Origin: Polytrichum commune
Taxonomy: Eukaryota > Streptophyta > Polytrichopsida > Polytrichales > Polytrichaceae
DNA: 64,000 nt
NCBI GenBank assembly: GCA_950295325.1
Contig: OX485804.1
Span: forward strand, 52,824,001-52,888,000
Reading direction: 5' to 3'
Each line of letters opens with the position of its first letter. Within the stretch, counting starts at the first letter, position 1. The position numbers and the translations under genes are program-made. Below, in pieces: positions 21,861 to 62,985 of the stretch. The notes under the pieces were generated by a model. That model was not told the DNA's origin. It made no database searches and saw only the letters and a program-made list of their open reading frames with translations.

Positions 21861-23007
21861 CAGGTGCAACATAGAACCCATCAAGGACCCAGAACCAAGT
21901 ATGCCCTTGAACTTCGTGACAATGCCATCCTTGATTGGAGTCTCCTCCAAATCATTTGGATTCAGAGATCTTTACACATATTCACTAAAGGTTGAGGCAT
22001 CTATAACCGATAAAACAAGAGAGTTTGCATTTCTTTAGGAAGAGTGATAGCAAAGGGACTATTTTTTCTTGTGAAGAGAAACAAATTATAAGGAGAATGT
22101 AATAACTAATTAATTGATTACATGAATATGGAAATTGCTCCAAATCTTGAAGCGGTGAAGTTAGGGTAACACATGGTTGATCTATAGGTTAACCTAAAAT
22201 CATTCATTTAAATTCTAATGCTTAGCTTCAACATTTGTCAAATCTCTTATGAGGGTAATCAATCACAAGCCACCACCACATAAACCTTAACTTTGTTCGC
22301 CTACAAAGTATGGATCTCATCCATGCCAACACTTACATGATCCTAGCGAGCAATTATATGGTCTTAGTTGACTATGGATGCCTCAACCTTACATATATTG
22401 CACGCCAACCCAAATATATTTAAACTAGCAAGTTGCATGTTGCACATGCAACAACAACAAACCACAAGTTGTACATGTGATTTATGGATGAAAACCTGTC
22501 ACATGAATGGTTTTGCATCATGCACATGACATGGATGAAGACTCGAGCACCAAATAGCATGATAGTTCTATGTTCAATTAATTTGACGGATGCATATTCT
22601 CATGTAGATTTCATAACATTACTCAACAACGTGTTTTTATTATAATTATTATGTTGAACCCTTAACTGTCAAGAAAAGTATTTGTCACTATTGAGAAGAA
22701 AATCAAACATGATGGTAGGATTTTTCCTTAGAGATTGGTGTTCTATCATATTGTGTGCATGTTTCAATGTGTCCACTTTGATATGTGCGAACGACTATCA
22801 TTCTACAACATGACCTCTTCCTCACTCAATGTTCTTCCTCACGCAAGGGTAGAGAGAACTTGCAAGACATTCCTTCATTGCCTTCCTATTCGAGGTGCTA
22901 GAAGCAAATGTTTTCTTTGCCTTTGCCTTAAATAAAAATTGGGTGTTATCATATGTTTGTTTAAAAGTTAGATAGCATAATTTAAGTTAATGCTTTCACA
23001 TTTGAAG
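21861..23007. other. Intergenic, nothing recognised
   Basis: AT-rich DNA with no recognised gene or element. The missing right end of the pogo-like element may lie within the first few hundred bases but could not be identified. Confidence 0.4.
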
Positions 23008-23594
23008 CCTTTGGAGACTTCACACTATGCCTGCCCAAAGGCTTCAATTCCTATATTTGATTGACTATTTTCAGCTCATTTCTTTGGGGTCAATATGGGG
23101 TCACCTTGTACATTTTTTCATTCCATAGTGGAACATGTAGAAGTGTTATTAAAGGTTGTTTTATTGACAAACAAAACAGAAATAAACAAGACATCATAAT
23201 TTCTCAATAGATAGAAATATTAAATAGAAATTTGTTTCATCTTAGATGCAATCTCAAGCTATGGAGAAGTCCAGTAATCGTTCAACCTACTCCAACACAT
23301 TGGACTCTTCTTTTGGGTGGGCAATCTCGGTTAGGTTTGATTAAAGACGGGTTATGAGGGTGGGAACGTCTTACTTTCATGCATTTACAAACAACTTCTG
23401 AAAATCCTCAATGGAAATAAGATTACCTATGTCTTTGAATTGAAGGTCGGCTTCACACTATGGCCGTCCAAGTCGAGAGGCCATGAGATTGAATGGCCAA
23501 ACTTTGTTGAGAGTTCAAAGAAATGAGCTGAAAATAATCAATAAAATATAGGAATTGAAGCCTTTGGGCAGGCATAGTGTGAAGTCTCCAAAGG
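23008..23594. repeat. ~80-bp inverted duplication flanking ~430 bp
   Basis: The block at 23008-23085 (CCTTTGGAGACTTCACACTA, then TGCCTGCCCAAAGGCTTCAA) recurs inverted at 23518-23594 with only a few changes. The right arm lies inside the next element (23444-24023), so the two structures overlap. Confidence 0.85.
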
Positions 23595-24023
23595 CCAAGC
23601 CTAAAGTCCAAACTATTGGCCATGAACTCTCACAACTTCTTGACTTGGACAGTCACAGTGTGAAGCCTCCAAAGGCCAAGCCGAGAGAGAGAGAGAAAGA
23701 GAGAGAGACCCACTTTATTCCCTACCCAAACCAACCCCTCCAATCTAACAACGAAGATCTTGTCAGTTTTTTTTTTCTTAAATGAAAAAATTCAACGGTC
23801 TCTCAACCATAATTTGAGTTTTCATTAATGTCTGACCCAAACTTCTTTTGGGAGTCCATCGCCTTGGTAAAAAATTATTGCCATGTAGACATTTTGGAGA
23901 ACGACAACCTTTGGACTTTGGCCTCTAGTGTGAAGGGTCGAGAGGTCAAATTCTTGGTTTCTTGCAATCTGATTGGTGGAAATTGACGGCCTCTCAACCC
24001 TCGGCCATAGTGTGAAGCGGCAC
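23444..24023. mobile_element. Harbinger-like element, diverged, 580 bp
   Basis: The left end is AGGTCGGCTTCACACTATGG. The right end, on the minus strand, is GTGCCGCTTCACACTATGG. Flanks are TGA and TAA, both fitting TNA. The interior repeats TCCAAAGGCCAAGCC twice and contains a short GA run at 23685-23708. It resembles the GGGCCGGTTCACACTATG family but is more diverged. Confidence 0.65.
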
Positions 24024-36663: not shown

Positions 36664-36984
36664 TTATATCCTTTTGATGCAACTTGGACACACGTAATTC
36701 TTGAAAACAATTCTTCGAATCTGCACAGGGTAAGAGTCGAGATTCACACATTTTGCGTGATAGACTTGGTTGCACTTGGTACAGGGAATCTTCTCGTCTT
36801 CACAAGTCTGGAATAAATCTTGTGCACAAACAACACAGTATCGATCATTGAAAACTACAATCCGTCCATGCTTTGTTCTGCTCATTGTGTTCTTCAAGAA
36901 ACTGCAAACTCGAAACTTTTGTGAAGATTGGGAAGCCCTGGGTTTGTGGAATTTTGCTTGACACGTTAAGTTTGAACTTCGCAC
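36664..36984 (-). CDS. PHD-like zinc finger reading frame, copy 1 (gene fragment)
   Basis: The frame encodes a C4HC3 zinc finger: CVVC, then CTKC, HAKC and CPSC with spacing typical of PHD fingers. It is preceded by a basic stretch containing FRVCSFLKN and KHGRIVVFNDRY. The second cysteine pair lies in CTKCNQVYHAKCVNLDSYP. A paralogue at 51959-52270 has the same architecture. No other exon was identified. It may be one exon of a larger gene, a domain captured by a transposon, or a decayed pseudogene. PHD fingers bind histone tails in chromatin proteins; that role is not shown here. Confidence 0.45.
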   Translation of the reverse strand: MRSSNLTCQAKFHKPRASQSSQKFRVCSFLKNTMSRTKHGRIVVFNDRYCVVCAQDLFQTCEDEKIPCTKCNQVYHAKCVNLDSYPVQIRRIVFKNYVCPSCIKRI

Positions 36985-40985: not shown

Positions 40986-41392
40986 CGTGCTACAGACTAT
41001 AGCAAAACGTCCTCGTGATACTGCCATGTGACGGGAACATTGAGATAGATACACGAGGATGGCTTGCTACAACCCGTAGTATAGCTCCTCGTCTACGATA
41101 TCATGCGTACCACTGATCATCTCACGAAGACTATATGCAGTAGTCTATATTCAATGTGTTGTGGCCAATGAGGCGGTGACACGTCAGCAAGATCTTACAG
41201 GGTCAACTCCACGTAGACCATAACTGGTGCCCCAAAAGGATAACCCGATTCGTTGAGTGTATGTTCTTGTCGAAAGATGGCGCTAAGATGACATCAGCAT
41301 TCTGGTTGGGCTTGTAATTGGAAAGGCACTCAGTGTTCATTTTCTGTGTGTGATGAGGAGTAGGCACCTAGGCTGTATTGGATGAAAAAGAG

Positions 41393-41418
41393 GGAGAGAG
41401 AGAGAGAGAGAGAGAGAG
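41393..41418. repeat. (GA)13 microsatellite in the PPR promoter
   Basis: A GA run about 220 bp before the PPR start codon. Confidence 0.95.
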
Positions 41419-41639
41419 GAGAGGGATGAGATAAGAGCAGCATTCATATGGATAAAGTTCATCCAACTGGAGACAGAGGCTAATCTCAATCGCTGCATCC
41501 GGAACTTTTCCTCTGCCTCTTCCTCTCCTTCGTTGCATTGCATTTGTGGCTATGGCGGATTCCCTCGCTCTCCACCCTTAACAAACATCGAAGGTCCTTT
41601 TCTCCTCGCACACTGACATCGCCAAATCCACAGCCAGCC

Positions 41640-44600
41640 ATGGCGGCTCACAGCATGGCCGCTTTATCATACAAGGAGCTGGCGTCCCCTCTCTCCCTCA
41701 CCACACTCACGCAGTGCTCTGTCTCTATGTCGGCGCCCCCGGCCTGCTGCTTCGCCTACGCTCCGGCGACGGGACGACTCGGAGACGCCAGCGTGTCAGG
41801 TTCCACGACCAGGAGCGTCCTGTGGGGCTCGGGGGACGCCAAGAGGGATGCCTGTGTCTGGGGGTTGGGCTCCTCTTTCGGTGGCCAGGGGTTTAAGAAT
41901 GGAGAGGGAAGCGTCGTTGCCAAGGCCAACCCCTTGGATGAGATGCAAGGCTATGTCGAAAAGGAGCTCAGGAGCTACACGTCGGAGTTGCACAAACGGA
42001 CTGTTGCTGGAGACAACTCACTTGATTCTTCTTCTTTCACTCAAGTATGTGTAAATTCTGGCGCCATTTGGATGCATTCTGCACTCATTGTGGTGCTTTC
42101 ATCTGTGTGTTGGAATTTCTGCATGTGAATGGGAGCATTGGGTTCAAGTATGGGCTCAAAACGTCTTGGCAATTTGTTGAAGAAAGTGCTTGTCCGTCAG
42201 TGTATATATTCCCACGAATTTCGGAATGAGTGAGGAGTAGATAGGAGCTTAGAATGCGACATAACAAAGCGAGGTTATGGGAAGGAGATAAGAAAAATGT
42301 AATTGATTAATTTTATTACATAGTCCAATGTAAAATTCTTCTTTCACTCAAGTAAGTGTTTTTGGCGCCATTTGTATGACTTTTGTAGTCATATGTGGTG
42401 GTTTCATGATTTGCCTTGGAAATTCAGCATGTGAATTGGAGCACTGGGTTTAAGCATGGGTTCAAAATTATCTTAAATGAAATGCTTGTCCGTCAGTGTA
42501 TATATGCAAATGAATTTTGAAATGGGTTACTGGAGCTGTAGAGAGTGAGGAGTAGATAGGAGCTTGGCATTTGATGTAGTAATGAGAAGCTATGGGAAGG
42601 AGGTGAGGATACATGAAATTGATTAATTTTGGTGTCCAGTGTAAGATTCTTTTTCCACTCAAGTATGAATTCTGGCGCCATTTGGTGTGAATTCTGTAGT
42701 CATGCCTTTCTGAATTTGAGTTGCTTCTGGTAATTTTATCCTGTGTCTTGGAAATTCAGCACGTGAATGGGAACGCTGGGTTTAAGAATGCGAATCAAAA
42801 TTTGCTTCGCAATCTGTCGAAGGAATCCACTTCTCTGTCGGTGTATACCAATGAACTTCGAAATTTCTGATGGATCTCTAGAGAGTGAGGAGTAGATAGG
42901 ACTTTGGCATTTGACGAAGAGCAGATGTATGAAGGAGGTGAGGGATATTGAAATTGATCAAATTTAATATGGTGTGTATTGCGTTGAGAGGGTTTGACTC
43001 ACTTAGAGACATTCACAATGACCAGAGTGTGTCGAAATTAAGGTTGGAAAGGTGACCAAAAACCTCAAATGAATGGAAGACAGTAGATATGGGTTCAGAC
43101 CTTCAGGCTTCCAATACAAACAAAGCTTTCAACGCACAACCTTGTTCCCATTCTAGGAGGATGCGTCTGAGTGCTAGAAGGGAAAAGAAAAATCTTGGAC
43201 GACGAGAAACCTCAGTGTTTTCACGAATAATTCCTTGGCCATTTTAGCTTGCAACAGTGTTTGTGTACGCATCAAATACTAGATTCTGTACAGCCATTGA
43301 GGTCTTGACATCCTGCAGGAAGATTGGCCAGTTAACGAACTTAAGGTGCTAGTTGTTAAAAAAGTTCATGTATTAGGGACAGTATGTCAAAAACACATAT
43401 ATGTTAGGAAGAAAGTATAATTAACAAAGTGCAAGTAATATGTCTTCCTTACTAGAGGAGTTTCATTTTTCACAAAAAACCTATACGACCAACAATGAAA
43501 TTCTGATCAATGCCTGTCAGAAATAAATACTGGGTAGTTAACATTCCGAGGTTGCTACCCTTCAATGTTAAGACACCCTAACAATCCTGTCTGCTGGAAC
43601 TTCCCCATCTAAATCCTAAAGCTTCAATGACCCATCTTCAATTAACAACACCAGATATTGACCTGAAATTTCCTAAACCAAGACTTGTAGGTGTACCCCC
43701 ATTTAGGCATGTCTCTAATGCTATTGACCATAACTTAGATAGCTTGAGACAGCATGTTTACCATGTCTATTTGCTCTGTGCTTCTCGGGCATTCTAATGA
43801 AAAGCATTCAATTAGAAGGACCAATACAAATATACATATCTGCACAGGAGCAACCTTTCCGAAATTTTCAGTGTACTTGGCAATACTGATTGTACACATA
43901 ATTGTTTCTTCATCCTGAAATGCTTACTATCAGCTTCTGTGAGCACTTGGGAGCTTCGCTATAGGATGGTACAAGTTACAAAGTTGAGATGATGCAAAGG
44001 GAATGCCCTAACTAAATGAAAGTATCTTAAAAAGGTTGTAGTCTCAACAAATTATTAACTTTTGTCTGCTTGCCCCTAAGATGTATGGTCTTCAGTCCAG
44101 CAGTTGTAGGATGTTTATTAAAGTTATCAATGTGCTCACAATGCATATCCTGGGGTATTTCTATCTGTCTATGATCGGGGTTTCTCTAACTATCTCTGAT
44201 ACCTAGAAGAACTTTTTTGAGTTCTATAAACTAGGTTCTCCCTTTTGCACATTGATCTTCTGGTGTAAATTGTTAAAAAAAAAAGTTCTCATTGAAATGC
44301 ACCTCTAGAGTTTAAATCACAAATTTCTCAAAGGGCTGTGTATTATGTAATTATCACGTAATGGAGGTGTATAATCTAATTATCTTATAATATTTGTATA
44401 ATTTTTATGTAACAATTTTCTTCGTAGTAGCATAATGTGGCACATGTTAGAAGAAAATAAGAAAGTCGGGCAATTATGATGCATTATTCATGAATTTAGT
44501 ATGTTATTTCAACATTTTATGGCTTCTACATGATTATACTGCCCATGGAAGTTTTGGATGTTTGGAATGTAGTAGACCATGCTGACCTTGTTGACATGGA

Positions 44601-47600
44601 ATTTCAGGAACCTAGAAGGTCGATACCCAGGTCTGAAGAACCGACAAGTGGGCAGAGTCTATACACAAGGAATGAGAGATTTTTAGGTTCAGAGAGGAAA
44701 AGATTCACTTCGTCTGAATATGATAGAGATCATTCAGGTGCACCTGAAGATGATGAAGAGAATGGGGTCTCAGGCTGGAGATATAGTCCTAAAAGGGAAT
44801 CAAATATGAAAAGAGATGTTTGGGTAAACCCCAGTGGCTCTTTTGCCAGAGATCCTAGGAGGCAGTCCGAAAGAAGGGGATCTGTAAATCAAGTCAACAA
44901 GTTTGTCTGGGTGAGCCCTGACCGAAAGAGCGAAAATGGCAATGCTACATGGCCGGAGCGAAGAGCTGCCATGATTGCCCTCCAAACTGGAGTGGATGTT
45001 GCCACTACTCTTTCCATGTAAGTCATTTAGTGTTTAGAGTGTATCTATGTTTATCTATCTATCTATCTATCTATCTATATTTAATAAATAATACTTGTGC
45101 ATGCATGGATAATAAATTATGCACATTATTCATTCACAATGACCATGCAAAGCAATAATTGGCATAAGGTAGATGGACCTTATTTGGTTATTTTCTGTTG
45201 TTTTGCTTATACTATCTGGATTCACAAGGTTTAAAATTATGTGCCCCCGCAAATGTATCTGAGGAAGCCAGATCAAGTCCATAAATTTCTAGGTCCATTT
45301 GTTATAAATTATCAAGGTCCACTGATAGTGAGCCATAAGAAGGCCACGTAGGTCCTCCAATTATGTTGACTGTTGAGCCTAGAATAATTAACAAATTTTG
45401 AGCACTTAAAATTTGAACACATTCTTGTTTGATGTCCGTTCTTAACAGGGTTTTGACCCTTCAGTGACATAAACTGAGTCCCAAAAGCAGGTGTCCAAAT
45501 ATTTTGCAGTAACCGAATTAGGCCTATCTACAGATTAGAGAGGTATCTAGGTGACACTGATGTCTATTTCTTTTGGATATTTTACAAAGTGCACCAGAGG
45601 TCCAGCTTAAGTTTAGAGACCAATTTACTGAATGCATCTCTTGAACTAAACCCTTGTGGGCTAGGAACTGGGAGAATTGCACCATGGTGTGTGCAATAAT
45701 TTTAATATATTTTGTCATATATGCTGAAGGCTACAAATCTTGTTGAAGACTTGTGGGTATGATTTTTTTTTGTGGTCCCTGATGACCTTTTAACCCATTG
45801 TGATGAACATCTACGATGTACTCACTAGACATTGAAAGTGACAAATCATCTTGTGCATGATTATCTTGCAGACATGGTGACAGATTGGAGACAATGGACC
45901 TGAATGCTGTGTTGAGGAGATACGGACGGATGAAAAAGTGGCAAGAAGCACTGACGGTAATCTACAGAGACCAAATCTGAGGTCTCACGAGGAGTTGTCC
46001 TCTAACTCACCATGACTTCTGGTCAGGATTTGCTTGTTTTGCATACACCTCCTTCCATGTACGGCAAAGATATGGTGCATTCTTGGAGGTATTGTGGAGG
46101 TTTGAACGAAGAACATTCTATATTGGTTCATTGAGGGTCAAACTCATTTTAGCATGCCAAGAGGTGCTAAAATGAATATAGTCCTCAATGAACCGAAATA
46201 GGTCGCACTTCATTCACATCAAAACACTACCTCAGAGCATCTACCACGAGTGGAAAGAATTCATTAATACTGTATGCAAAACAACCCATGGAAAAACATA
46301 GGGGACCAAATCCCGATGAAAAGTCCCATTGAGTTAAAGGACGACTTAATTGTTGTTCCGCTATTTCAAAATGATGATGTGCTGGCTGATAAGGGGAGGA
46401 GGAGACTGGGGGTTCTAAACAAGTTATTTTTTGTTTTATTTGCAGCTTTTTGAGTGGATGAAGGATAATGACAAGCTGTCAGCACCAACATACACAAGCT
46501 TTTTCTCAGTTCTAGGCAAAGGGGGGCGGGTCGAGAAGGCATTGCACGTGTTCAATGATCTGCCATTGGACAGTGATATTCGCAGGAATGTCTATGTGTG
46601 CAACTCGGTACTGAGTACATTAGTCTATAATGGCAAGGTGGACAAAGCGTTTCGCCTTTTTGAGCAGCTTAAACAAGAGGGCCTTAAACCTGACATTATC
46701 ACGTACAGTACGGTAAATCATGGAATCTCTTTCCCAGCCCTTTTAGCAAACAGTATTTCTCTGAGCATGTTGTTACCAGTGTTTGACTGATATCACCTTT
46801 TGTTGATCCATTCGGGTATGTATCTTGAGGATATTATATTAATACCGTTAGGTTACGAGTATTAGAGGAGGGTTTTGATGCAGTTCAGGTTTAGATACCA
46901 TGCAAGGGCCTTTATACCCAGGTAAAATCACCTTAGTATCAACATGGTATGAGGATGGTATTGACCCAAATAACAACTCTGGTACACAAAGATTCTCTCA
47001 TCTTGTGATACCCACACAGTATCAATGTCTGATTAGTATTACAATTTGGATACTGATTGGGTAGGTTCTTTGATACCAGCATTGATATTATGTATTTTTA
47101 CCATGCAATTACCTTGATACTAGTCCAACATTGGTTGTCTCCGATTGTAATTGCCAGTGGTATTATCATCCTACTTGTGGCTCAGATTTGTTGTAAATCA
47201 ATTATTTCTGGTCAAAGCAGTTCCACATGTTATCACGTGTTGGTTGTCACCTTTAAAAGGTGCCGTGGAAATGCGCCCAATCAGACCTGAATGTACGATT
47301 TTCACCACAGGGGGCTATAATTAAAAGAAGTTATGGGGATGGGCCAGGTGATTGCTGGGTGTGCTAAGACCCGAGATGGTTTTGCAAAGGCCAAGGATTT
47401 TGTGGAACAAATGCAAGCACAAAGTCTCACACAAGACGCAGTCATATATGGGGCACTTATAAATGTGTGTGCATCACATGGATTAGAAGAGGAGGCCAAA
47501 GAGACTTTTCAAGAAATGGTAGAGGCTGGGTTGACTCCCAATCTCTTTCACTATAGCGCTTTACTCAACACTTTTGCTAGCAAAGGCAAGCATGTAGAGG

Positions 47601-50600
47601 CTGAACGCGTGGTGGATCAAATTCGATCTGCAGGGCTAATTCCAAATTTGGTACTTCTCTCCAACTATATCCTGAATTACTCATGTCCTGGAAGGCCCTG
47701 GAGCTTGGACTTCCAATATTTCCACCTTGACTAGACAATTAGTGTGGCCTGTATTAATCATTTCGACAGTAATTTTCCACCCACACTAATAGGACTATTT
47801 AGTGTACTTGTACGCCTACACTAATTTCAGTTGTTTAGTATAATGAGGTTCTGTATGTGACAAGGGAGTTCTGTGTCCTTTCATGCAGGTGGTGTATAAC
47901 TCATTAATGAACGCCTACTCCAATAGCAGAATGCCAGATGAGGCACGGAAGATTTTTGAGGATATTCAAGCTGAGGGCTTACAACCTGACATGGTTTGTG
48001 TTGATCCACCCAATTAGACAGTTCCCAAGAAAGTTGTATTTTATTCTTTGATCTTTCGTGGACTTTGTTCTTTGATTCACAATTGGGTAATCAAATGCTT
48101 TGGCCATATCCTGACACTTTTGGACCTTGCTAAATACTGGGTCTGTGCATTGCAATATCTGCAAGATGATCTGGCCCAAGAAGCACTGCCCTAATCTCAG
48201 CATAAGTGAATTTGTGAGATTTCATTGTGAACCAGTTTTGACATTTGATTGCTTTTGCTATTTCAGGTCTCATATTGCTCTATGATGGATGCTTATGCAA
48301 AATCAGAGAGAGTGCAGGAGGCGCATGAAATATTCCACATGATGCGAGCCAATGGCATAGACCCAGGTTAGTCTTGAGGAAAAAATTCATGGATCTATTC
48401 AGAGGCACATTAGTAGGCGAATTATGCACTTGCCATGGGTTAAACTATCTTAACCTTCACTTTCCCACCATGCCACACATCTCCTACGTCACACCCTACT
48501 CACATCTTCAATCATCCTCCTTTTTTGGCTGCAAATTTTTGACCTTAAATATGCATCCCCACAGTTGAAAAGTCTGTTTTCCTGTCAAAGATTAATTTGC
48601 TGTTTGAAAGGTCGTTAGCAGTTACTATGAGACATATTTGCCAATCTTGAATAGAGTTCTATGTCTATACCATTTCCCCTGTTGGTACAAAGAGTGGCGC
48701 TTTATTTATTTTTCTCCATTGAGGGAGTTGATAAGCTCTGGAGGTTAGCGGTGTATGATATGTGCTGGTATTGTCACTGCTAATAAGGCATGTATTTTCA
48801 CCTTTTGTGTGCAGGTAGCATAGGTTATAGCATATTGATTCTAGCCTATGCCAAAGTTGGACAATTAGATGGAGTTGAAAGACTGGTTGCTGAGCTTGAC
48901 CAGAATAAGAAAGGACAATGTGACATTCTTTTGTTCAATACCTTGCTCAAGGCCTACTGCAACGCGGGTTACATGGATGGGGTTATGGCAACGCTTAAAA
49001 AAATGGATGCTGAAGGTTGTACCCCTGACCGGGGTACTTTCAACATTCTTATTGGATATTTTGCCAAGGAAGACCTTGTTGATTTAGCCCTTCGGACACT
49101 GCAAGATATGGAAGCAAGGGGTCACCGGCCAAATGAGGTTTGTGACTGTTCATATTGAACATGTGTTATTTTGTTCTGCAGTTGTTATTATTGCATGCCC
49201 AGTTACTTAATTTTATAGGGTCTATTGGACAGTATGACAGTTCACTATGTGGGGTAGTAGTAGTTTCAGGCCTCAAATTGATATTTTTTGTTTTTTAGTT
49301 GAGAATCTGGTCACGAGCATTTTAAAGGGTTTTCAATGAGGTGCCAGAAATCTGAGGATTTGGTCGTAATCTGGGTTGTTCTTTGATGGCAAATAGGCTA
49401 CATACAATGCACTATTACAAGGACTCATGAAAGTGGGCAAAGTGGAGGACATGTGGGATACATTTTTGGTAATGAAGAAACGGGGCATCGTGCCTACCAA
49501 CCTATCTTTGCACACTGTCATCACAGGACTTCTAAATGATGATCGAATTGACGATGTTCTCACCACTTTTGAGGAGTTAAAGGTAAATGATGCAGAAGTA
49601 TTGGGTAACTTTTATATTTGATGTGTTGGTCTAACTGGAGTCTAGAAAAGACTCTGGTCATCATAAGTGCATATCAGTAAGTTGATAGAAGCCACTGTAT
49701 TTAATTGCTGCTATTCGGGCCCTTTTCATGGGTGTTTGACATCCTTCATATAGTACTTCAAACTCTTGCACTAAAAGCCAGAGTATCCTTTTCATTATAT
49801 TTTTGCCATGCTGTTTCCTTATAGATTCCACATTTGTAATTTACATCAATAATTCAAACCACAGTTTTGGCATACCTTTAGTTCACAATTTCATATCTGG
49901 TCAGTGATCAATCATATGACGTAAAAGGCCCTTGCTTGACCTATGCAAGATTGAATAGCAGTTTGTTGATAGGCATTTCATCATAGAAGCTCCTTGTCTA
50001 CTCGATCAAGTCTTACAAGAGCCTTACAAATCAATTGTTATTTATCCCTGTGCAGGGGAGAGGGCGAGCATTGGTACCTGGCACAATGGAGAGACTTATA
50101 GAAGCTTTTGTAAAAGCAGGAAACATGTCCGAGGTAAAGGCCGCACTAATTTTGATGAAGGACTCAGGACATATCCCTTCACAAGTAAGTGGACAACCAA
50201 TTATCTGCAGTAGGCTACCATATCCTGAATAGTAGGGGAAAAATTGGACAATTTTACTTGAGATTTGTTCTACCTATGTGATCAGCGCAAATGCTCATTC
50301 ATTCCTTCCTTCATTTGCACAGCAGTTTTTATTTTTTATTTTAAAATTTTGTTATTGAAAAAAATAAAATCAAGGAACCAAACCCAACAGTCTGACATGT
50401 CTGACATGAGAGCTTTTCTTCTATGCAGGGCACGTGGGATATCATTCTACTTAAGTATGCAGAGCTTGGGCTGTACCCAGAGTTATTACAATTGTTAGAG
50501 GAGTTAAAAGTGGCAGGCGTTAATGCCAGCCCTAGTACCTACTCGGAGCTCATGAAGCAAGTCTCCAATTCTACTGAAACAGTCAAGATAATTAGTGATT

Positions 50601-50626
50601 TGACCAGCCCAGCACCTGTGCCATAG
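41640..50626 (+). CDS. P-class pentatricopeptide repeat protein, At1g10910-like, 836 aa
   Basis: Eleven exons join in phase: 41640-42044, 44608-45017, 45872-45956, 46446-46712, 47348-47650, 47889-47993, 48267-48366, 48815-49137, 49397-49582, 50056-50184 and 50429-50626. The N-terminus (MAAHSMAALSYKELASPLSL) is rich in Ala and Ser with few acids, consistent with a plastid transit peptide. Residues 136-270 are a charged linker with VWVNP and VWVSP. From about 275 to 830 there are some twelve to thirteen 35-residue PPR motifs, such as NVYVCNSVLSTLVYNGKVDK and VVYNSLMNAYSNSRMPDEAR. There is no E, DYW or SMR domain, so it is P class. Such proteins bind organelle RNA and aid its processing, stability or translation. 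The family match is to the intron-rich At1g10910 (EMB3103) type. Most introns are phase 0 and fall near PPR borders. Confidence 0.92.
42027..42970 (+). repeat. Three ~310-bp tandem copies spanning the exon 1 donor of the PPR gene
   Basis: The anchor CACTCAAGTA occurs at 42038, 42345 and 42656, spacings of 307 and 311 bp. Each unit runs through GGCGCCATTTG, TGTGAAT(T)GGGA, GTCCGTCAGTGTATA or a variant, GAGTGAGGAGTAGATAGGA, and ends near AAATTGAT. The first copy begins inside exon 1, so the last 12-15 coding bases and the donor are triplicated: CAA|GTATGT, CAA|GTAAGT and CAA|GTATGA. Confidence 0.9.
44424..44520 (+). repeat. Dispersed repeat in PPR intron 1 (pair with 34697-34805)
   Basis: TAGCATAATGTGGCACA, TAGAAGAAAATAAGAAA and TTATTTCAACATTTTATGG match the ELMO intron 8 repeat in order and orientation. 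Confidence 0.75.
45052..45078. repeat. (TATC)n microsatellite in PPR intron 2
   Basis: About six tandem tetranucleotides, 35 bp after the intron donor. Confidence 0.95.
46105..46230. mobile_element. Foldback element in PPR intron 3
   Basis: The arms 46121-46154 and 46166-46200 are inverted: TTGGTTCATTGAGG and TCATTTTAGCA recur as TGCTAAAATGA and CCTCAATGAACC. Weaker arm similarity extends outward about 20 bp on each side. No coding sequence. Confidence 0.8.
46830..47085 (-). repeat. Dispersed repeat in PPR intron 4 (inverted pair with 54460-54700)
   Basis: Read on the minus strand this stretch aligns over about 240 bp to 54460-54700, sharing ATTTGGGTCAATAC, CAAATTGTAATA/CAAAATTGTAATA, GAGAGAAACTTTGTATACC or variants, and ATGGTATC-type motifs. 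Similarity is moderate. No reading frame is conserved. Confidence 0.7.
47717..47817 (+). mobile_element. Small repeat, copy 2, in PPR intron 5 (pair with 36315-36404)
   Basis: TTTCCACCTTGACTAGA, AATTAGTGTGGCC, TAATTTTCCACCCACACTAA and TATTTAGTGTAC match the copy near 36.3 kb. It begins about 65 bp after the exon 5 donor. Confidence 0.75.
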
Positions 50627-51958: not shown

Positions 51959-52270
51959 TCACCACCGTGTGTCCTTCGAAGTCCCTGAACCGTTGGCCAT
52001 GTTTTGACAAAAAGTGCATGTGTATGTTGGTTGATTGGGATAATGACCAAGGTTCACACAATTATTGTGGTAAACCTGCTTGCAAGTATCACAAGCTACT
52101 TTTTCGCTATCCTTAAAGTTGGTTACATTGTGCCCACAAACTATGCAGTTGTTTGGATCCGTAGTGAGTGCGATTTGCTTTTTCTTGAGCTTGAAGAATT
52201 TGAGTGAGGGTGGACATGTGAAGACCTTAGGCTCAGGTTCTCTGGCGTCAAAGTTCCAAGTAATGTACAT
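51959..52270 (-). CDS. PHD-like zinc finger reading frame, copy 2 (gene fragment)
   Basis: A C4HC3 pattern: CIVC, CDTC, HNNC and CTFC, with VYHNNCVNLGHYP between the last pairs. It is preceded by VFTCPPSLKFFKLKKKQIAL and DPNN. The arrangement matches the frame at 36664-36984, including an upstream Cys-containing basic stretch. A consensus-like acceptor (GACGCCAG before AGAACCTGAG) lies inside the frame near residue 9, so it may be an internal or last exon. I cannot name the gene. Confidence 0.45.
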   Translation of the reverse strand: MYITWNFDAREPEPKVFTCPPSLKFFKLKKKQIALTTDPNNCIVCGHNVTNFKDSEKVACDTCKQVYHNNCVNLGHYPNQPTYTCTFCQNMANGSGTSKDTRW

Positions 52271-54459
52271 TCTTCGTCAATATCATGAACCCAATATCAA
52301 AATTAACTTAAAATATATAAAACACGATCCACTTAAAGACACAATCAACTTAGAGCAAGAGGTTGGGATATCAAACCTCTACTTGTGATCACCTACATGT
52401 AACATTATTCAATAGCCTTGGGAATTGCTACCTATTGTGCTCAAATATGTCCCTTTGTGATGCTAAAACTCCATCAATCCCAATATAAATCTAAAATACC
52501 CAAATCTTGCTTCGATTGGGAATAGTTAGATGACAATGAACCTCAAGTGAATAATGTGCTAGACTGGAGTAAGAGGTAAAATCTATGAGCATGCCAATTA
52601 AAAAGCATTTGACCATTAAAAGCTCAAAACCTACACAATTTAAACTCATAAGTGACAAAATCAAGGAAGCACATTTACCAAATTCCTATCAAATATCTTA
52701 CACACCTCATTCTCAATTGAAAAAAAAACCTAGACAAAAATCAAGCCATGCACTTCCATGTATGTTTGTATGGTTTAGGTGTTTTCTCACACTTAGAAAC
52801 ATGTTGCCTCTTGGCAACATGCACCTTCCAAGAGGAAGGCACTATACCATACATGGTCACATGAAAAAACCCACGAGTAAATATAATATGGTTTGAAGAT
52901 ACCCTCCTTCACATCAATGCAAAGCCCTATAATTGTTTCTTCAACTAATCAATTTAAAATGCATGTTGACAAATTGAGGTTATGATGCATCTTTGTGCGT
53001 GTAGGCCTGATCATTATAAAGAATGAGCTAAGTGTCGTTCCCTCTACATAGCATTGTTACAAACCCTATATGTGTTCCCCTTGCAAGGAATAATTAACCG
53101 CCTTCCCAAGAACAATGGGTCATTCCTAAATCCACAATGAGGTAAAACCTAAATGTTAGCCAACTCATTTATGCCTTTTTAAAAACCTAGTCATGCCTAG
53201 CGACTCATTTCAAGGGCGAGCTCGCTACCATCTTGAAATGTTATGTACATTCTAAAGGTTGTCAATGGAAAAAATGAAACAGAAAACAAAGAATGCAAGT
53301 ACTTCTTATCACCTGCATGAAAAACAACATTTGTCGTTGAAGAGCTTACCCATGCATTGCATGGGTTGTCTCCTCGATAGTGTAGTAGTTACTACTACTT
53401 GGAAGGTAGACATGCGTAATTCAGATACTGAACACCTAAATTTGAGTGAAGTATGCTTGAGTGAATCTAAAAATGAACACCAAAAAAACATGTTTTGCAA
53501 ATAGATTGGATCACATGCTCAAAATTCAGTAATCATCCTGGACGTGTCAGTCAACACAATTGGGGAGGGGACTTGGATGATCAGTTATCTATTCATCGAA
53601 TCTTCACTTTGACATTGAATAAAACATTCATATGACCTCTGAAAATTATGAGGAAAGTGGCTACTTGCACGATTCGGATACGGTATTCATCTCACACTAA
53701 TTTGGTTTTTCATATCCTACAAAAAGCGGATGTAGAGAGAAAAGCGTTTATTCAAGACGCACTGATCTTAGGTCTCAATGGTGTCAACTACGTAAATTAT
53801 AATATTATGAGGATGAGGATCACCACTTCAAGTTATACCTGAGAATACCTGCTCTTAAAGAAGCCCAACCCCATTCGAGCTGAGCGGATGGTGAACTTAG
53901 AGTCGCCTCTTCAAAAGATTTGCAATAATCTCATTCCCTCCATTCGATTGCCTACCCTGCAACTTTGACCTGTTGTTGTGAGCCGTTGTTGCATTTGGCA
54001 ACAAATTACGTGTACGAAAACTCATACTACCGAGGTTTTGCATCCAATCTTGACGATTTGGCGCACTGAAGTTTTTATAATCTGTTTCTCCGAGAGCTTC
54101 ATGGTACACATGTTTGATTTGGGGTCAATCTGCAAGTCTTTGAATGTTCAGAGACACGTGTGTAAGTAGGATAAATTTGTGCTTTTTGTGGTGTGAGAGG
54201 TTGAGTTTGGGCTGGAAAGATTCTTGGGGCTGCTCAACATTCATGAGAATGTACTGCACTCCCGATCAAAAGTAGTGAAGAGTTGCAATGCAGGTGTTGA
54301 AGAGTCATGGCTCCTCACAAATATTGTCGAGTGAATGTGACTTTTGAAGCCACTCCAACATGTTGTCATCTTATTGGCGTTTTTGTGGTTAGATAAACAC
54401 ATAGTCTAGAGACGTCATGATCAATGTGGAGCTAGTATATAGGTGAATCATGGAATCCA

Positions 54460-59772: not shown

Positions 59773-61617
59773 TGACAATCAGATGTTGGGAGTTGTATTG
59801 AAATCTAAACCTCCTTAAGTAACTTTTTGAGTATCCGACTATTCTATTCCAAGGGCCCACTGAACGAGCACTAAGTGCTGAGTCACGTTTTGTCAAAGGA
59901 AATTATGAAAAGGAGGCCACAAGTGTCGGAAGGAACTGGGAGAGGAGAGAGAAGAGGGTGAGGAATCAGAAGAAGAATCAGAAGAAGAATCAAAGGAATC
60001 CGAAAGAAGTCCGGATGACGAAGGAGGGAGGAAGTAGAAGCCTTGACCTGCAAAAGTGCCACCTTTGCACTGCAAATGCGAAGGAGTCCAGTCACCGGGC
60101 AGTCCCCCAAGTTTGACTGCCTTTCACAGAACCTCAAGTTGGGGAAGTCTTCCGACGATCCTAACGTGCCGGCTAACTTGCTTGGAATCGTGGGCCAGAT
60201 GAAGAATTAGTTGAAGCCATAGCCGGAAGAGGCAGCAGTGGAAGGAAGGACTCAGCTCATTCTTCTTCCTCCTCCTTCTTGGTCACTCCGTGCTTCAGTT
60301 GCAGCTGACAAAGTACTTACATGCTGGAGGTGAGTTGGAATTAGGATCTCCTCGCCCCATGTGTTTCCAGGGTTGCGTGTTGTTTGTGTTTCGCAGTTTT
60401 TGTTGGAATGTGAAGTAATTTTTTTTTTTTTGGATAGCTCATTGGTGCCGTGAAGTTGTCGTTGTTGTTCTTAGAGACGGTTGGTCAGTGGGAGGTCAAT
60501 TGAACTGGGAACTTTTGAAGGCTCTTGTAGCCTTTGCAATCTACACATCTTAGACCTGAGCGGTGAAGTGGTCCAAGGAACCGAGAGAGAAGAGATCGGT
60601 GAATTGGGTTCCAGAAAATTGGGATTTTTGAGGTCAACTGGGTCGCAAATTTGGTCAGAGGTTCAATTGGCAGTGCATAGCTCAATCTTCTCCGTGTTTT
60701 TTTTTGGGTGAAGTAGACTATGATGTGAGCGACAACAACTCTTTGATCAACCCTGCTGTTTCTGTACTCCTATTTTAGTGCGTCAATCGGCAATGAAGGA
60801 GGCATCCGTCCATACAGCTTGGAAGTTAGGGTTCCAGATTTTCTTGTGATTCATTAGCACTTTTTGTTGGAGTATGAAGTGAGAATTTTGGGAGAAACAG
60901 GGTAATCATCCTATTCCTCAAAGATAGGTCGCCGAGTTTGGGAGTGGTGACGAAGAGGTTCTCTTTTGGAGACGGTCGGCCAGGTGTAGATCGATGGAAT
61001 TTTGAAACATGCACGGTGAAGTGGGTCAAGAAATTTAATGAGAGCAATTGGTGAATTTTGTTTGAGAAACTGGCTTACGTAAGGTCATCTACGTTGCAAA
61101 CTTGGTCAGAGTTTCAATTGACCTTGGATAGATTGATATTCTCCGTGTTCTTGTGTGTTAATAATAGTGAACTATGATGTGATCGAAAGCAGCAAATTTC
61201 TCATCGACCCTGCTTTTTCTGTTTTCTGTGTCCACAATGAAGGAGGCATCCGCCCATATAATTTGGAAGTTAGGGTTGGTCCATCGGTCAGGTGTAGGTC
61301 GATAGAATTTTGAACCTGCATGGAGAATCTGTTCAAGAAATCGAAAGAGAGGAATTGGTGAATTTTGTTCGAGAAACTGGCTTACTTGAGGTCATCGGCG
61401 TTGCAAACTTGGTCAGAGTTTCAATTGGCAGTGCATAGCTCAATCTTCTCCGTGTTTTTGTGTGTGAATGATCATAAACTATGATATAATCGACACCAGC
61501 TGCTCTCTGATCGACCCTGCTGTTTCTGTTGTCTTATTTCAGCGTATAAGAAAATCCGCAACGAAGGAGGCATCTCCTCAGACAGGTTGAAGATTAGGGC
61601 TGACAAAGTTTTGAGCT
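59773..61617 (+). promoter_or_regulatory. Promoter and 5' leader of the BTB gene
   Basis: The stretch 59925-60020 is GA-rich with repeated AATCAGAAGA. From about 60478 to the start codon the sequence consists of the tandem units listed separately. An acceptor-like TCTTATTTCAG ends near 61542, suggesting a 5' UTR intron. No gene was recognised. Confidence 0.5.
60478..61605 (+). repeat. Three tandem leader units before the BTB gene
   Basis: Units start near 60478, 60972 and 61285 with CGGTTGGTCAG/CGGTCGGCCAGG/CATCGGTCAGG. Each passes CAAACTTGGTCAGAGTTTCA or a variant, TTCTCCGTGTT, AACTATGAT, CGACCCTGCT and TTTCTGT. Each ends with GAAGGAGGCATC and a TTGGAAGTTAGGGTT-like stretch. The last two units are about 313 bp; the first is longer (about 494 bp) with extra sequence. 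The last ends directly at the start codon. Confidence 0.88.
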
Positions 61618-62985
61618 ATGGCGATGATGGGAAGGGCACGCATTGAAGTCGGGGGAAGGACATTCATAACCACGTTGCAAACATTGGAGAAGGGAGGCAA
61701 GGGCTCCAATTTGTATCAAACAGTTTACCCAACCGGCCAAGGATTCTTCGATCGGGACTGCGACATGTTCAACATCCTTCTCAACATGCTCAGAACGGGG
61801 GTGGTGCATCCGAAGCCCGACAACTCCACGATGGACAGGCTGATTGACGAAGCAGAATACTATGGGATTGCAGAGTTTCTGAAATCTGCAGATGGCAGGG
61901 CACCTCTGGACGGATTAGACCTCGAGAAGGCAAAGCCAATCACCACGAGTGGCATCGACATACCCTCTGCAATTGCAGCTGGAGCAGATGGATCCCTCTG
62001 GGTAGGCCATGGCAGCAAAATCACGGCATACAACTGGGCACTTCGGAAGGAAAAAACAACTCTCACAGAGTTCACCTCCATCGAAGCATTCCACCGAATT
62101 TCTGACAATTTGGCTGCATGTGGAGCCTCAGACCTACCCGGCCTTCATCTTTACGATGTTGTCAACGGTGTGCACACGAAGCGTATTGTGTGGACAGACG
62201 CGAACGATCCTAGGGTTTACAATCCTGTGGTTAAGGCAATCTCATCTAATGAGTCTTCCATCTTTGCGAGCTTCGAAAGTGGACAGAGGCTTGACAACAC
62301 GGTGTCGATTGTCGACAAGGAAACCTCACAGATTACAATGGAATTAGGGAGACAGAATGGCTCTTCTTCTCACACCAAAGCTGCAACGAAGCTTCAATGG
62401 CTGCCTCAGAGGGGACTGCTTCTTGTAGGATCTGTGCAAGGAGGTTCGTTTGGGTTCAGTGGTTACATGCGGCTATGGGATGTGCGAACTGAGAAAGTGG
62501 TTTGGGATTGGAAGGAACCGAATTTTCAGAAAGGTGGGCGAGTTGCGGAGCAGGATATGTTTTCTGATATGGTGGTGGATGAAGATCTCGGTGCCATTTT
62601 TAAGGTAAGCGTTTTGTCTGGGGCTCTCTCCCTCGCAGATCTTCGCCACCTTGACACACAAGACCCGTGGTTGGAGCTTGTGGAGAATTCTGAAATTCCC
62701 GAGAAGCCTACGGTGCCCGGAGCAAACAAGAAACTGGTCACTTACAACAGGCAGGTTTATGTCAGCCGCGGTGCAGATGTGGAGGTTTGGGCAGAGGTCC
62801 CCTTGGCTGAGAGCTTCAAGAAGCAAGAGGAAAAAGAGTATTGGGAAACTTCCTTCGGAAGAAGCACCCTCGAGCACCCTCGGTATAGTGGCCAGGAGGT
62901 GACATGCATGCGGACCGGTGGCAACAGACTGTTTGTCATTCGCAAAGATTTTCAAGGGGTTGAGGTTTGGGAAACTCACCGATGA
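61618..62985 (+). CDS. BTB/POZ (T1-type) domain protein with WD-like C-terminus, 455 aa
   Basis: A single uninterrupted exon from ATG 61618 to TGA 62985, flanked by repeat-rich leader DNA. Residues 8-90 are a T1-type BTB domain as in KCTD proteins: RIEVGGRTFITTLQTL, then FFDRDCDMFNILLNMLRTG and AEYYGIAEFLK. The remainder (100-455) has weak WD-like blades, including GYMRLWDVRTEKVVWDW near 281-297, and ends FQGVEVWETHR. This is the At2g24240/At4g30940 family, with length close to the usual ~440 aa. BTB-T1 proteins commonly oligomerise and often act as cullin-3 adaptors, but for the plant family that is inferred. Codon use is GC-richer than the flanks, and no defect was seen. Confidence 0.95.
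   Translation: MAMMGRARIEVGGRTFITTLQTLEKGGKGSNLYQTVYPTGQGFFDRDCDMFNILLNMLRTGVVHPKPDNSTMDRLIDEAEYYGIAEFLKSADGRAPLDGLDLEKAKPITTSGIDIPSAIAAGADGSLWVGHGSKITAYNWALRKEKTTLTEFTSIEAFHRISDNLAACGASDLPGLHLYDVVNGVHTKRIVWTDANDPRVYNPVVKAISSNESSIFASFESGQRLDNTVSIVDKETSQITMELGRQNGSSSHTKAATKLQWLPQRGLLLVGSVQGGSFGFSGYMRLWDVRTEKVVWDWKEPNFQKGGRVAEQDMFSDMVVDEDLGAIFKVSVLSGALSLADLRHLDTQDPWLELVENSEIPEKPTVPGANKKLVTYNRQVYVSRGADVEVWAEVPLAESFKKQEEKEYWETSFGRSTLEHPRYSGQEVTCMRTGGNRLFVIRKDFQGVEVWETHR

Follow-up and report, generated by a model that had tools for sequence, protein, structure and literature searches.

Does a repeated segment that carries the 5' splice site of a gene's first exon provide that gene with additional working donors, or with the relics of one? 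The question is posed by a locus in a stretch of 64,000 nucleotides of the Polytrichum commune genome (C2:52824001-52888000, hereafter the window), in which the border between exon 1 and intron 1 of a predicted PPR gene is part of a tandem triplication. The original prediction had been that the triplication sets three competing donors ahead of exon 2 and makes the gene a candidate for regulated or noisy splicing. We consider the gene, the array, the donors and the repeat background of the genome in turn, and then weigh the explanations.

The host gene and its triplicated segment

Conceptual splicing predicts a PPR gene of 11 exons on the + strand (41640-50626), the joined frame of which comprises 836 codons plus a stop, is free of internal stops and has GT...AG borders at all ten predicted introns (Table 1). 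The start codon at 41640 is our choice; donor 1 and the acceptor before 44608 are in the same phase. Eight Pfam families match the predicted protein at E up to 0.001, six of them above their cut-offs: the PPR models PF13041, PF01535, PF13812, PF12854 and PF17177, which uphold the gene identity originally proposed and supply the tandem PPR motifs that characterize a P-class protein, and the related repeat model TPR_24. The eight include neither an SMR domain nor a C-terminal E/DYW domain. Judged by its predicted sequence, the product is thus a P-class PPR protein, a family for which targeting to the chloroplast or mitochondrion is expected. It matches 41 sequences of solved structure, the best of which include a designed PPR, PPR10 and PAP2/pTAC2. 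When used as a probe against the genome (407.8 Mb in 64 contigs, seven of which, 42-78 Mb in size, add up to about 406 Mb), exon 2 matched only itself; since this exon represents a linker and not the PPR repeats, a diverged paralogue could escape such a probe.

Table 1. Coordinates of the predicted gene, the repeat copies and the donor-like sites within the window
Feature	Position	Strand	Details
Exon 1 of PPR gene, coding part	41640..42044	+	Inferred from its open frame and a phase that agrees with exon 2
Intron 1 of PPR gene	42045..44607	+	2563 bp; inferred
Exons 2-11 of PPR gene, with introns	44608..50626	+	836 aa including exon 1; conceptual splicing and PPR families
Repeat copy 1	42029..42335	+	Crosses exon 1/intron 1 border; local alignment, self-BLAST, MAFFT
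Repeat copy 2	42336..42646	+	Local alignment, self-BLAST, MAFFT
Repeat copy 3	42647..42969	+	End at 42965 by self-BLAST, at 42969 by local alignment
Donor 1, GTATGT	42045..42050	+	Inferred working donor; only frame-keeper of the three CAA/GT sites
Copy 2 donor-like site, GTAAGT	42352..42357	+	U1 pairing -7.5 kcal/mol versus -4.0 at donor 1
Copy 3 donor-like site, GTATGA	42663..42668	+	U1 pairing -4.0 kcal/mol
Donor-like site near end of copy 2, GTGAGG	42603..42608	+	U1 pairing -10.2 kcal/mol
Donor-like site near end of copy 3, GTGAGG	42938..42943	+	U1 pairing -10.2 kcal/mol
In-frame TGA reached when donor 1 is skipped	42126..42128	+	Conceptual translation

The array consists of three head-to-tail units spaced 307 and 311 bp apart and starts 16 bp before the end of exon 1. 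Pairwise local alignment of the units scores 215 (copies 1 and 2), 225 (2 and 3) and 120 (1 and 3), compared to a maximum of 31 among 200 shuffles per pair, and self-BLAST of the window aligns 42029-42630 to 42336-42965 with 70.3% identity including gaps (E = 1.3e-81). Three direct copies of about 310 bp, the first of which begins inside exon 1, are therefore present much as originally described; the span then given, 42027-42970, is about right in position, with a left edge that moves to 42029 and a right edge that moves to 42965 or 42969. Tandem Repeats Finder, run at its default threshold, does not list an array at 42029-42969. A fourth copy was sought on both sides: there is none upstream, in 41000-42028, and the sole score above the shuffles downstream (40, at 42966-42985) is a self-match of a copy 3 query that reached to 42985. 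Searched against the genome at the DNA level, neither the full stretch nor copy 3 matched anything outside this locus; we accordingly rejected a dispersed element as the source, noting that the search passes over very common words.

A MAFFT alignment of the three copies, for which copy 3 was taken to 42985 and hence past its supported end, has 354 columns, 277 of them ungapped and 186 of the latter invariant. Over ungapped columns, identity is 79% between copies 1 and 2, 76% between 2 and 3, and 74% between 1 and 3; the corresponding K80 distances are 0.245, 0.299 and 0.329, and each pair has 40-60 gapped columns. Distances and identities of this order indicate that the duplications are old. 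Copies 1 and 2 form the closest pair, and three sequences are insufficient to order the duplication events.

Repeats of other kinds lie nearby. The 3' part of intron 1 (44308-44568), which stops some 40 bp short of the acceptor, aligns to a roughly 250-bp dispersed repeat with at least 41 other matches in the genome, where the best 40 of 191 candidates were scored. Open frames on either side of the gene (36664-36984 and 51959-52276, both on the - strand) contain similar Cys/His-rich fragments, PHD-finger-like by eye, which are perhaps pieces of a mobile element. Elsewhere in the window, at 23007-23086 and 23516-23595, two 80-bp arms about 430 bp apart form an inverted repeat with 97.5% identity.

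Strength and retention of the donor copies

The repeated splice context reads CAA/GTATGT at 42045, CAA/GTAAGT at 42352 and CAA/GTATGA at 42663, exactly as first reported. Among these three sites, donor 1 alone gives the full PPR protein. Splicing from donor 2 would retain an extra 307 nt and splicing from donor 3 an extra 618 nt, and both would bring in the TGA at 42126, the first of the in-frame stops that the original prediction expected beyond donor 1.

How do the sites compare in strength? On a donor matrix weighted by plant frequencies, donor 1 scores 3.55, the copy 2 site 4.36 and the copy 3 site, which has lost the T at +6, 2.24; the ten inferred donors of the gene range from 0.0 to 6.0, with donor 1 ranking sixth. 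Predicted U1 pairing for the same ten donors runs from -4.0 to -8.2 kcal/mol, donor 1 being the weakest. Copy 2 does, as claimed, have the best consensus of the three on either measure, and because it outscores donor 1 while donor 1 pairs least well with U1 among the ten, leakage is plausible. Further sites have to be considered, however, if the array is to be read as three donors in competition. GAG/GTGAGG, at 42603 and 42938 and absent from the original list, as is an exact 19-bp block in each copy, outpairs all three CAA/GT sites with U1, and of the 166 GTs from 42046 to 44559, 44 equal or exceed donor 1 in U1 pairing. The matrix is more selective: only four of the 166 intronic GTs (42352, 42603, 42730 and 42938) reach donor 1, all of them within the triplicated part and none in 42971-44560. 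The density here is 4.3 per kb; two other parts of the window, read on the + strand, have 0.71 and 0.93. Two of the four, though, are copies of each other, so that they do not represent four independent events.

To ask whether the extra donors are under selection, we simulated neutral evolution along branches of 0.12 and 0.17 substitutions per site from an ancestral GTATGT or GTAAGT. Starting from GTATGT, the two extra GTs survive together in 57% of runs, and the two extra sites are both at least as strong as the copy 3 donor in 20%; starting from GTAAGT, the figures are 56% and 27%. CAAGTAAGT emerges in 49% of runs with GTAAGT as the ancestor and in only 2.1% with GTATGT. Retention of the GTs is what neutral decay predicts, and other sites pair with U1 as well or better, so that the three competing donors originally proposed are left unsupported. 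In the donor block, invariant columns number 17 of 19 (hypergeometric P = 0.023, with no correction for having picked this block), and clumping of conserved columns across the units is mild: the longest run of conserved ungapped columns is 22 (permutation P = 0.010), the longest gap-free run is 19 (P = 0.036), and the second-longest run is unexceptional (P = 0.14). The strength of the copy 2 donor, the rarity of CAAGTAAGT in runs from GTATGT, the invariance of the donor block and this clumping point weakly the other way, against reading the sites as relics, but fall short of demonstrating a function.

Conserved blocks and the repeat background

The longest conserved block is the exact 19-mer GAGTGAGGAGTAGATAGGA, which is distinct from the donor block and occurs in every copy (42228, 42543 and 42883). 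Another block, TGGCGCCATTTG, is likewise identical across the three. A GGCGCC palindrome lies within a 12-bp block that is unchanged between copies (42059-42070, 42363-42374 and 42673-42684); allowing one mismatch, this block has three matches in the window, all in the array, where 0.23 are expected. An E2F site in each copy was considered and dismissed, as was a structured RNA in the units. Fold z-scores are -1.26, -2.07 and -0.03 for copies 1, 2 and 3, with 13, 4 and 46 of 100 shuffles folding as well; folding is therefore inconsistent across copies, though copy 2 alone beats 96 of 100 shuffles, and two-sided changes affect four of 63 consensus pairs. An Rfam scan of 41300-45100 returned three weak matches, none at gathering level, which we read as chance; the best (MIR533, 41398-41531, - strand, 25.4 bits against a cut-off of 80) partly overlaps an AG repeat.

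Local direct repeats are common in this genome. Counting direct repeats that span 100 bp or more, lie within 1.5 kb and have E of 1e-5 or lower, we find one or more in ten of 14 arbitrary 10-kb stretches, all of which were examined, and a hand count from the resulting table gives head-to-tail arrays with a base period of at least 150 bp in three (L003, L010 and L011). Genome probing covered the arrays of these three stretches. The large L010 array recurs near full length at 39 or more other places (best 40 of 1124 candidates scored); for the L003 array, one third has three further occurrences at 92-94% identity, the remainder being found in short pieces only; of the L011 arrays, the second is dispersed, whereas the first is matched elsewhere in short pieces only (best 40 of 10440 candidates). 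Several local arrays are thus dispersed repeats, unlike the array in PPR intron 1.

The window itself contains a second tandem triplication, at 60561-61599 (71-82% identity, units spaced about 453 and 308 bp apart), which lies shortly before the start codon (ATG, 61618) of a gene encoding a BTB_2/At2g24240-like beta-propeller protein (61618-62985). It has nine further matches of 45-159 bp in the genome, all to one part of it, and shares no match longer than 20 bp with the array in PPR intron 1. The BTB_2 family was also tried as a sample of gene 5' ends and abandoned, since its three places in the genome are too few; L017-L019 were left out.

Explanations and known systems

The most probable account, in our view, is an old internal tandem duplication in which donor 1 dominates and any use of donors 2 and 3 is unproductive noise. 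A segment of about 310 bp, made up of the last 16 bp of exon 1 and the adjoining part of intron 1, would have been duplicated twice, by unequal exchange or replication slippage. Donor 42045, the sole frame-preserving site of the three, would yield the working mRNA and remain the working site because the PPR protein needs it, leaving the downstream CAA/GT sites as decaying relics in a long first intron. Splicing from such relics would produce early-stop messages, probably removed by nonsense-mediated decay, at the level of noise rather than regulation. Of the original alternative between regulated and noisy splicing, the noisy half is plausible for copy 2, given that donor 1 has the weakest U1 pairing; the regulated half is left unsupported, in view of the neutral expectation for the GTs, the other sites that pair with U1 as well or better, and the commonness of local direct repeats in this genome.

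Imagine, instead, that donor choice were regulated or served to set dose, with donors 2 and/or 3 or GAG/GTGAGG diverting part of the transcripts to early-stop messages that are destroyed, so that less PPR protein is made. Such a model of regulated decay is mechanistically reasonable and makes a sharp prediction; the copy 2 donor is stronger than donor 1, donor-like sites are concentrated within the array, the premature TGA at 42126 lies well upstream of later exon junctions, and the donor block is mildly conserved. Yet survival of the GTs and strength at the level of copy 3 both fall within neutral expectation, the +6 T is gone from copy 3, and the conservation P values, which are uncorrected, reflect small effects. 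We regard regulated choice as unlikely, and very unlikely the narrower claim that successive duplication built a small array of donors, of which the downstream ones, above all CAA/GTAAGT in copy 2, are maintained by selection to divert a share of the transcripts of this RNA-binding protein gene into decay and thereby set its dose. It is likewise very unlikely that the triplication multiplied a regulatory DNA element of the intron, for example TGGCGCCATTTG or the 19-mer GAGTGAGGAGTAGATAGGA, with the donor copies as passengers. Both blocks are the same in all three copies, the longest conserved run beats most column permutations (P = 0.010-0.036), and the 19-mer, at up to one mismatch, is confined genome-wide to the three copies, its reversed control pattern occurring once; against this, the second-longest run does not stand out from permutations, and an E2F-type pattern fits copy 2 only, its three matches in the window lying at chance level.

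That copies 2 and 3 are cryptic (poison) exons or new introns, with the pyrimidine-rich TTCTTCTTTCACTCAAG as acceptor at the start and GAG/GTGAGG at the end, strikes us as highly improbable. There is a pyrimidine tract before the AG, and a strong donor-like site follows 251 bp (copy 2) or 275 bp (copy 3) downstream, but the AAG/T acceptor scores just -2.02 on a weight matrix, which places it 67th among the 159 AGs of the intron and lower than every one of the ten inferred acceptors (-0.17 to 8.25). Scarcely credible, finally, is an assembly artefact: tandem repeats can be misassembled, but the copies diverge by 21-26% over ungapped columns, with many indels besides, and so are distinct sequences, in a window without a single N. 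If the extra donors were used, the locus would offer a compact natural experiment in how cells select one of several duplicated 5' splice sites, and would exemplify dose control that arose by duplication. On present evidence, it is a further example of internal tandem duplication, from a plant genome rich in local direct repeats.

Among the top-ranked open-licence PMC titles and abstract openings, we found no report of this intron 1 locus or of duplicated donors in any PPR gene. Internal gene duplication, or tandem genomic duplication, around splice sites has reportedly been treated by Rogers (1989), Gao & Lynch (2009) and Hellsten (2011). Alternative 5' splice site choice can be coupled to nonsense-mediated decay, and the array bears a predicted likeness to such systems in that donor-like sites downstream in intron 1 would add a premature stop, the TGA at 42126 in our frame analysis. 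The model of intron gain through AGGT fits less well: the units carry CAAGTA instead of AGGT, and the lack of an AGGT pair combined with a weak acceptor-like sequence gives no sign of a new intron.

A parallel comes from potato RdRp (PMC4974935), where splice signals are likewise repeated by tandem duplication within a gene; the same paper notes that an 83-bp tandem duplication within a first intron left gene structure unchanged. What the PPR array shares with these internal duplications is a splice signal repeated within a gene; unlike the potato case, it copies a 5' splice site along with 16 bp of exon and lacks a good acceptor. With the inferred end of exon 1 (42044) inside copy 1, the array is an internal tandem duplication spanning a splice site and, as far as its sequence indicates, belongs to the broad class of internal duplications.
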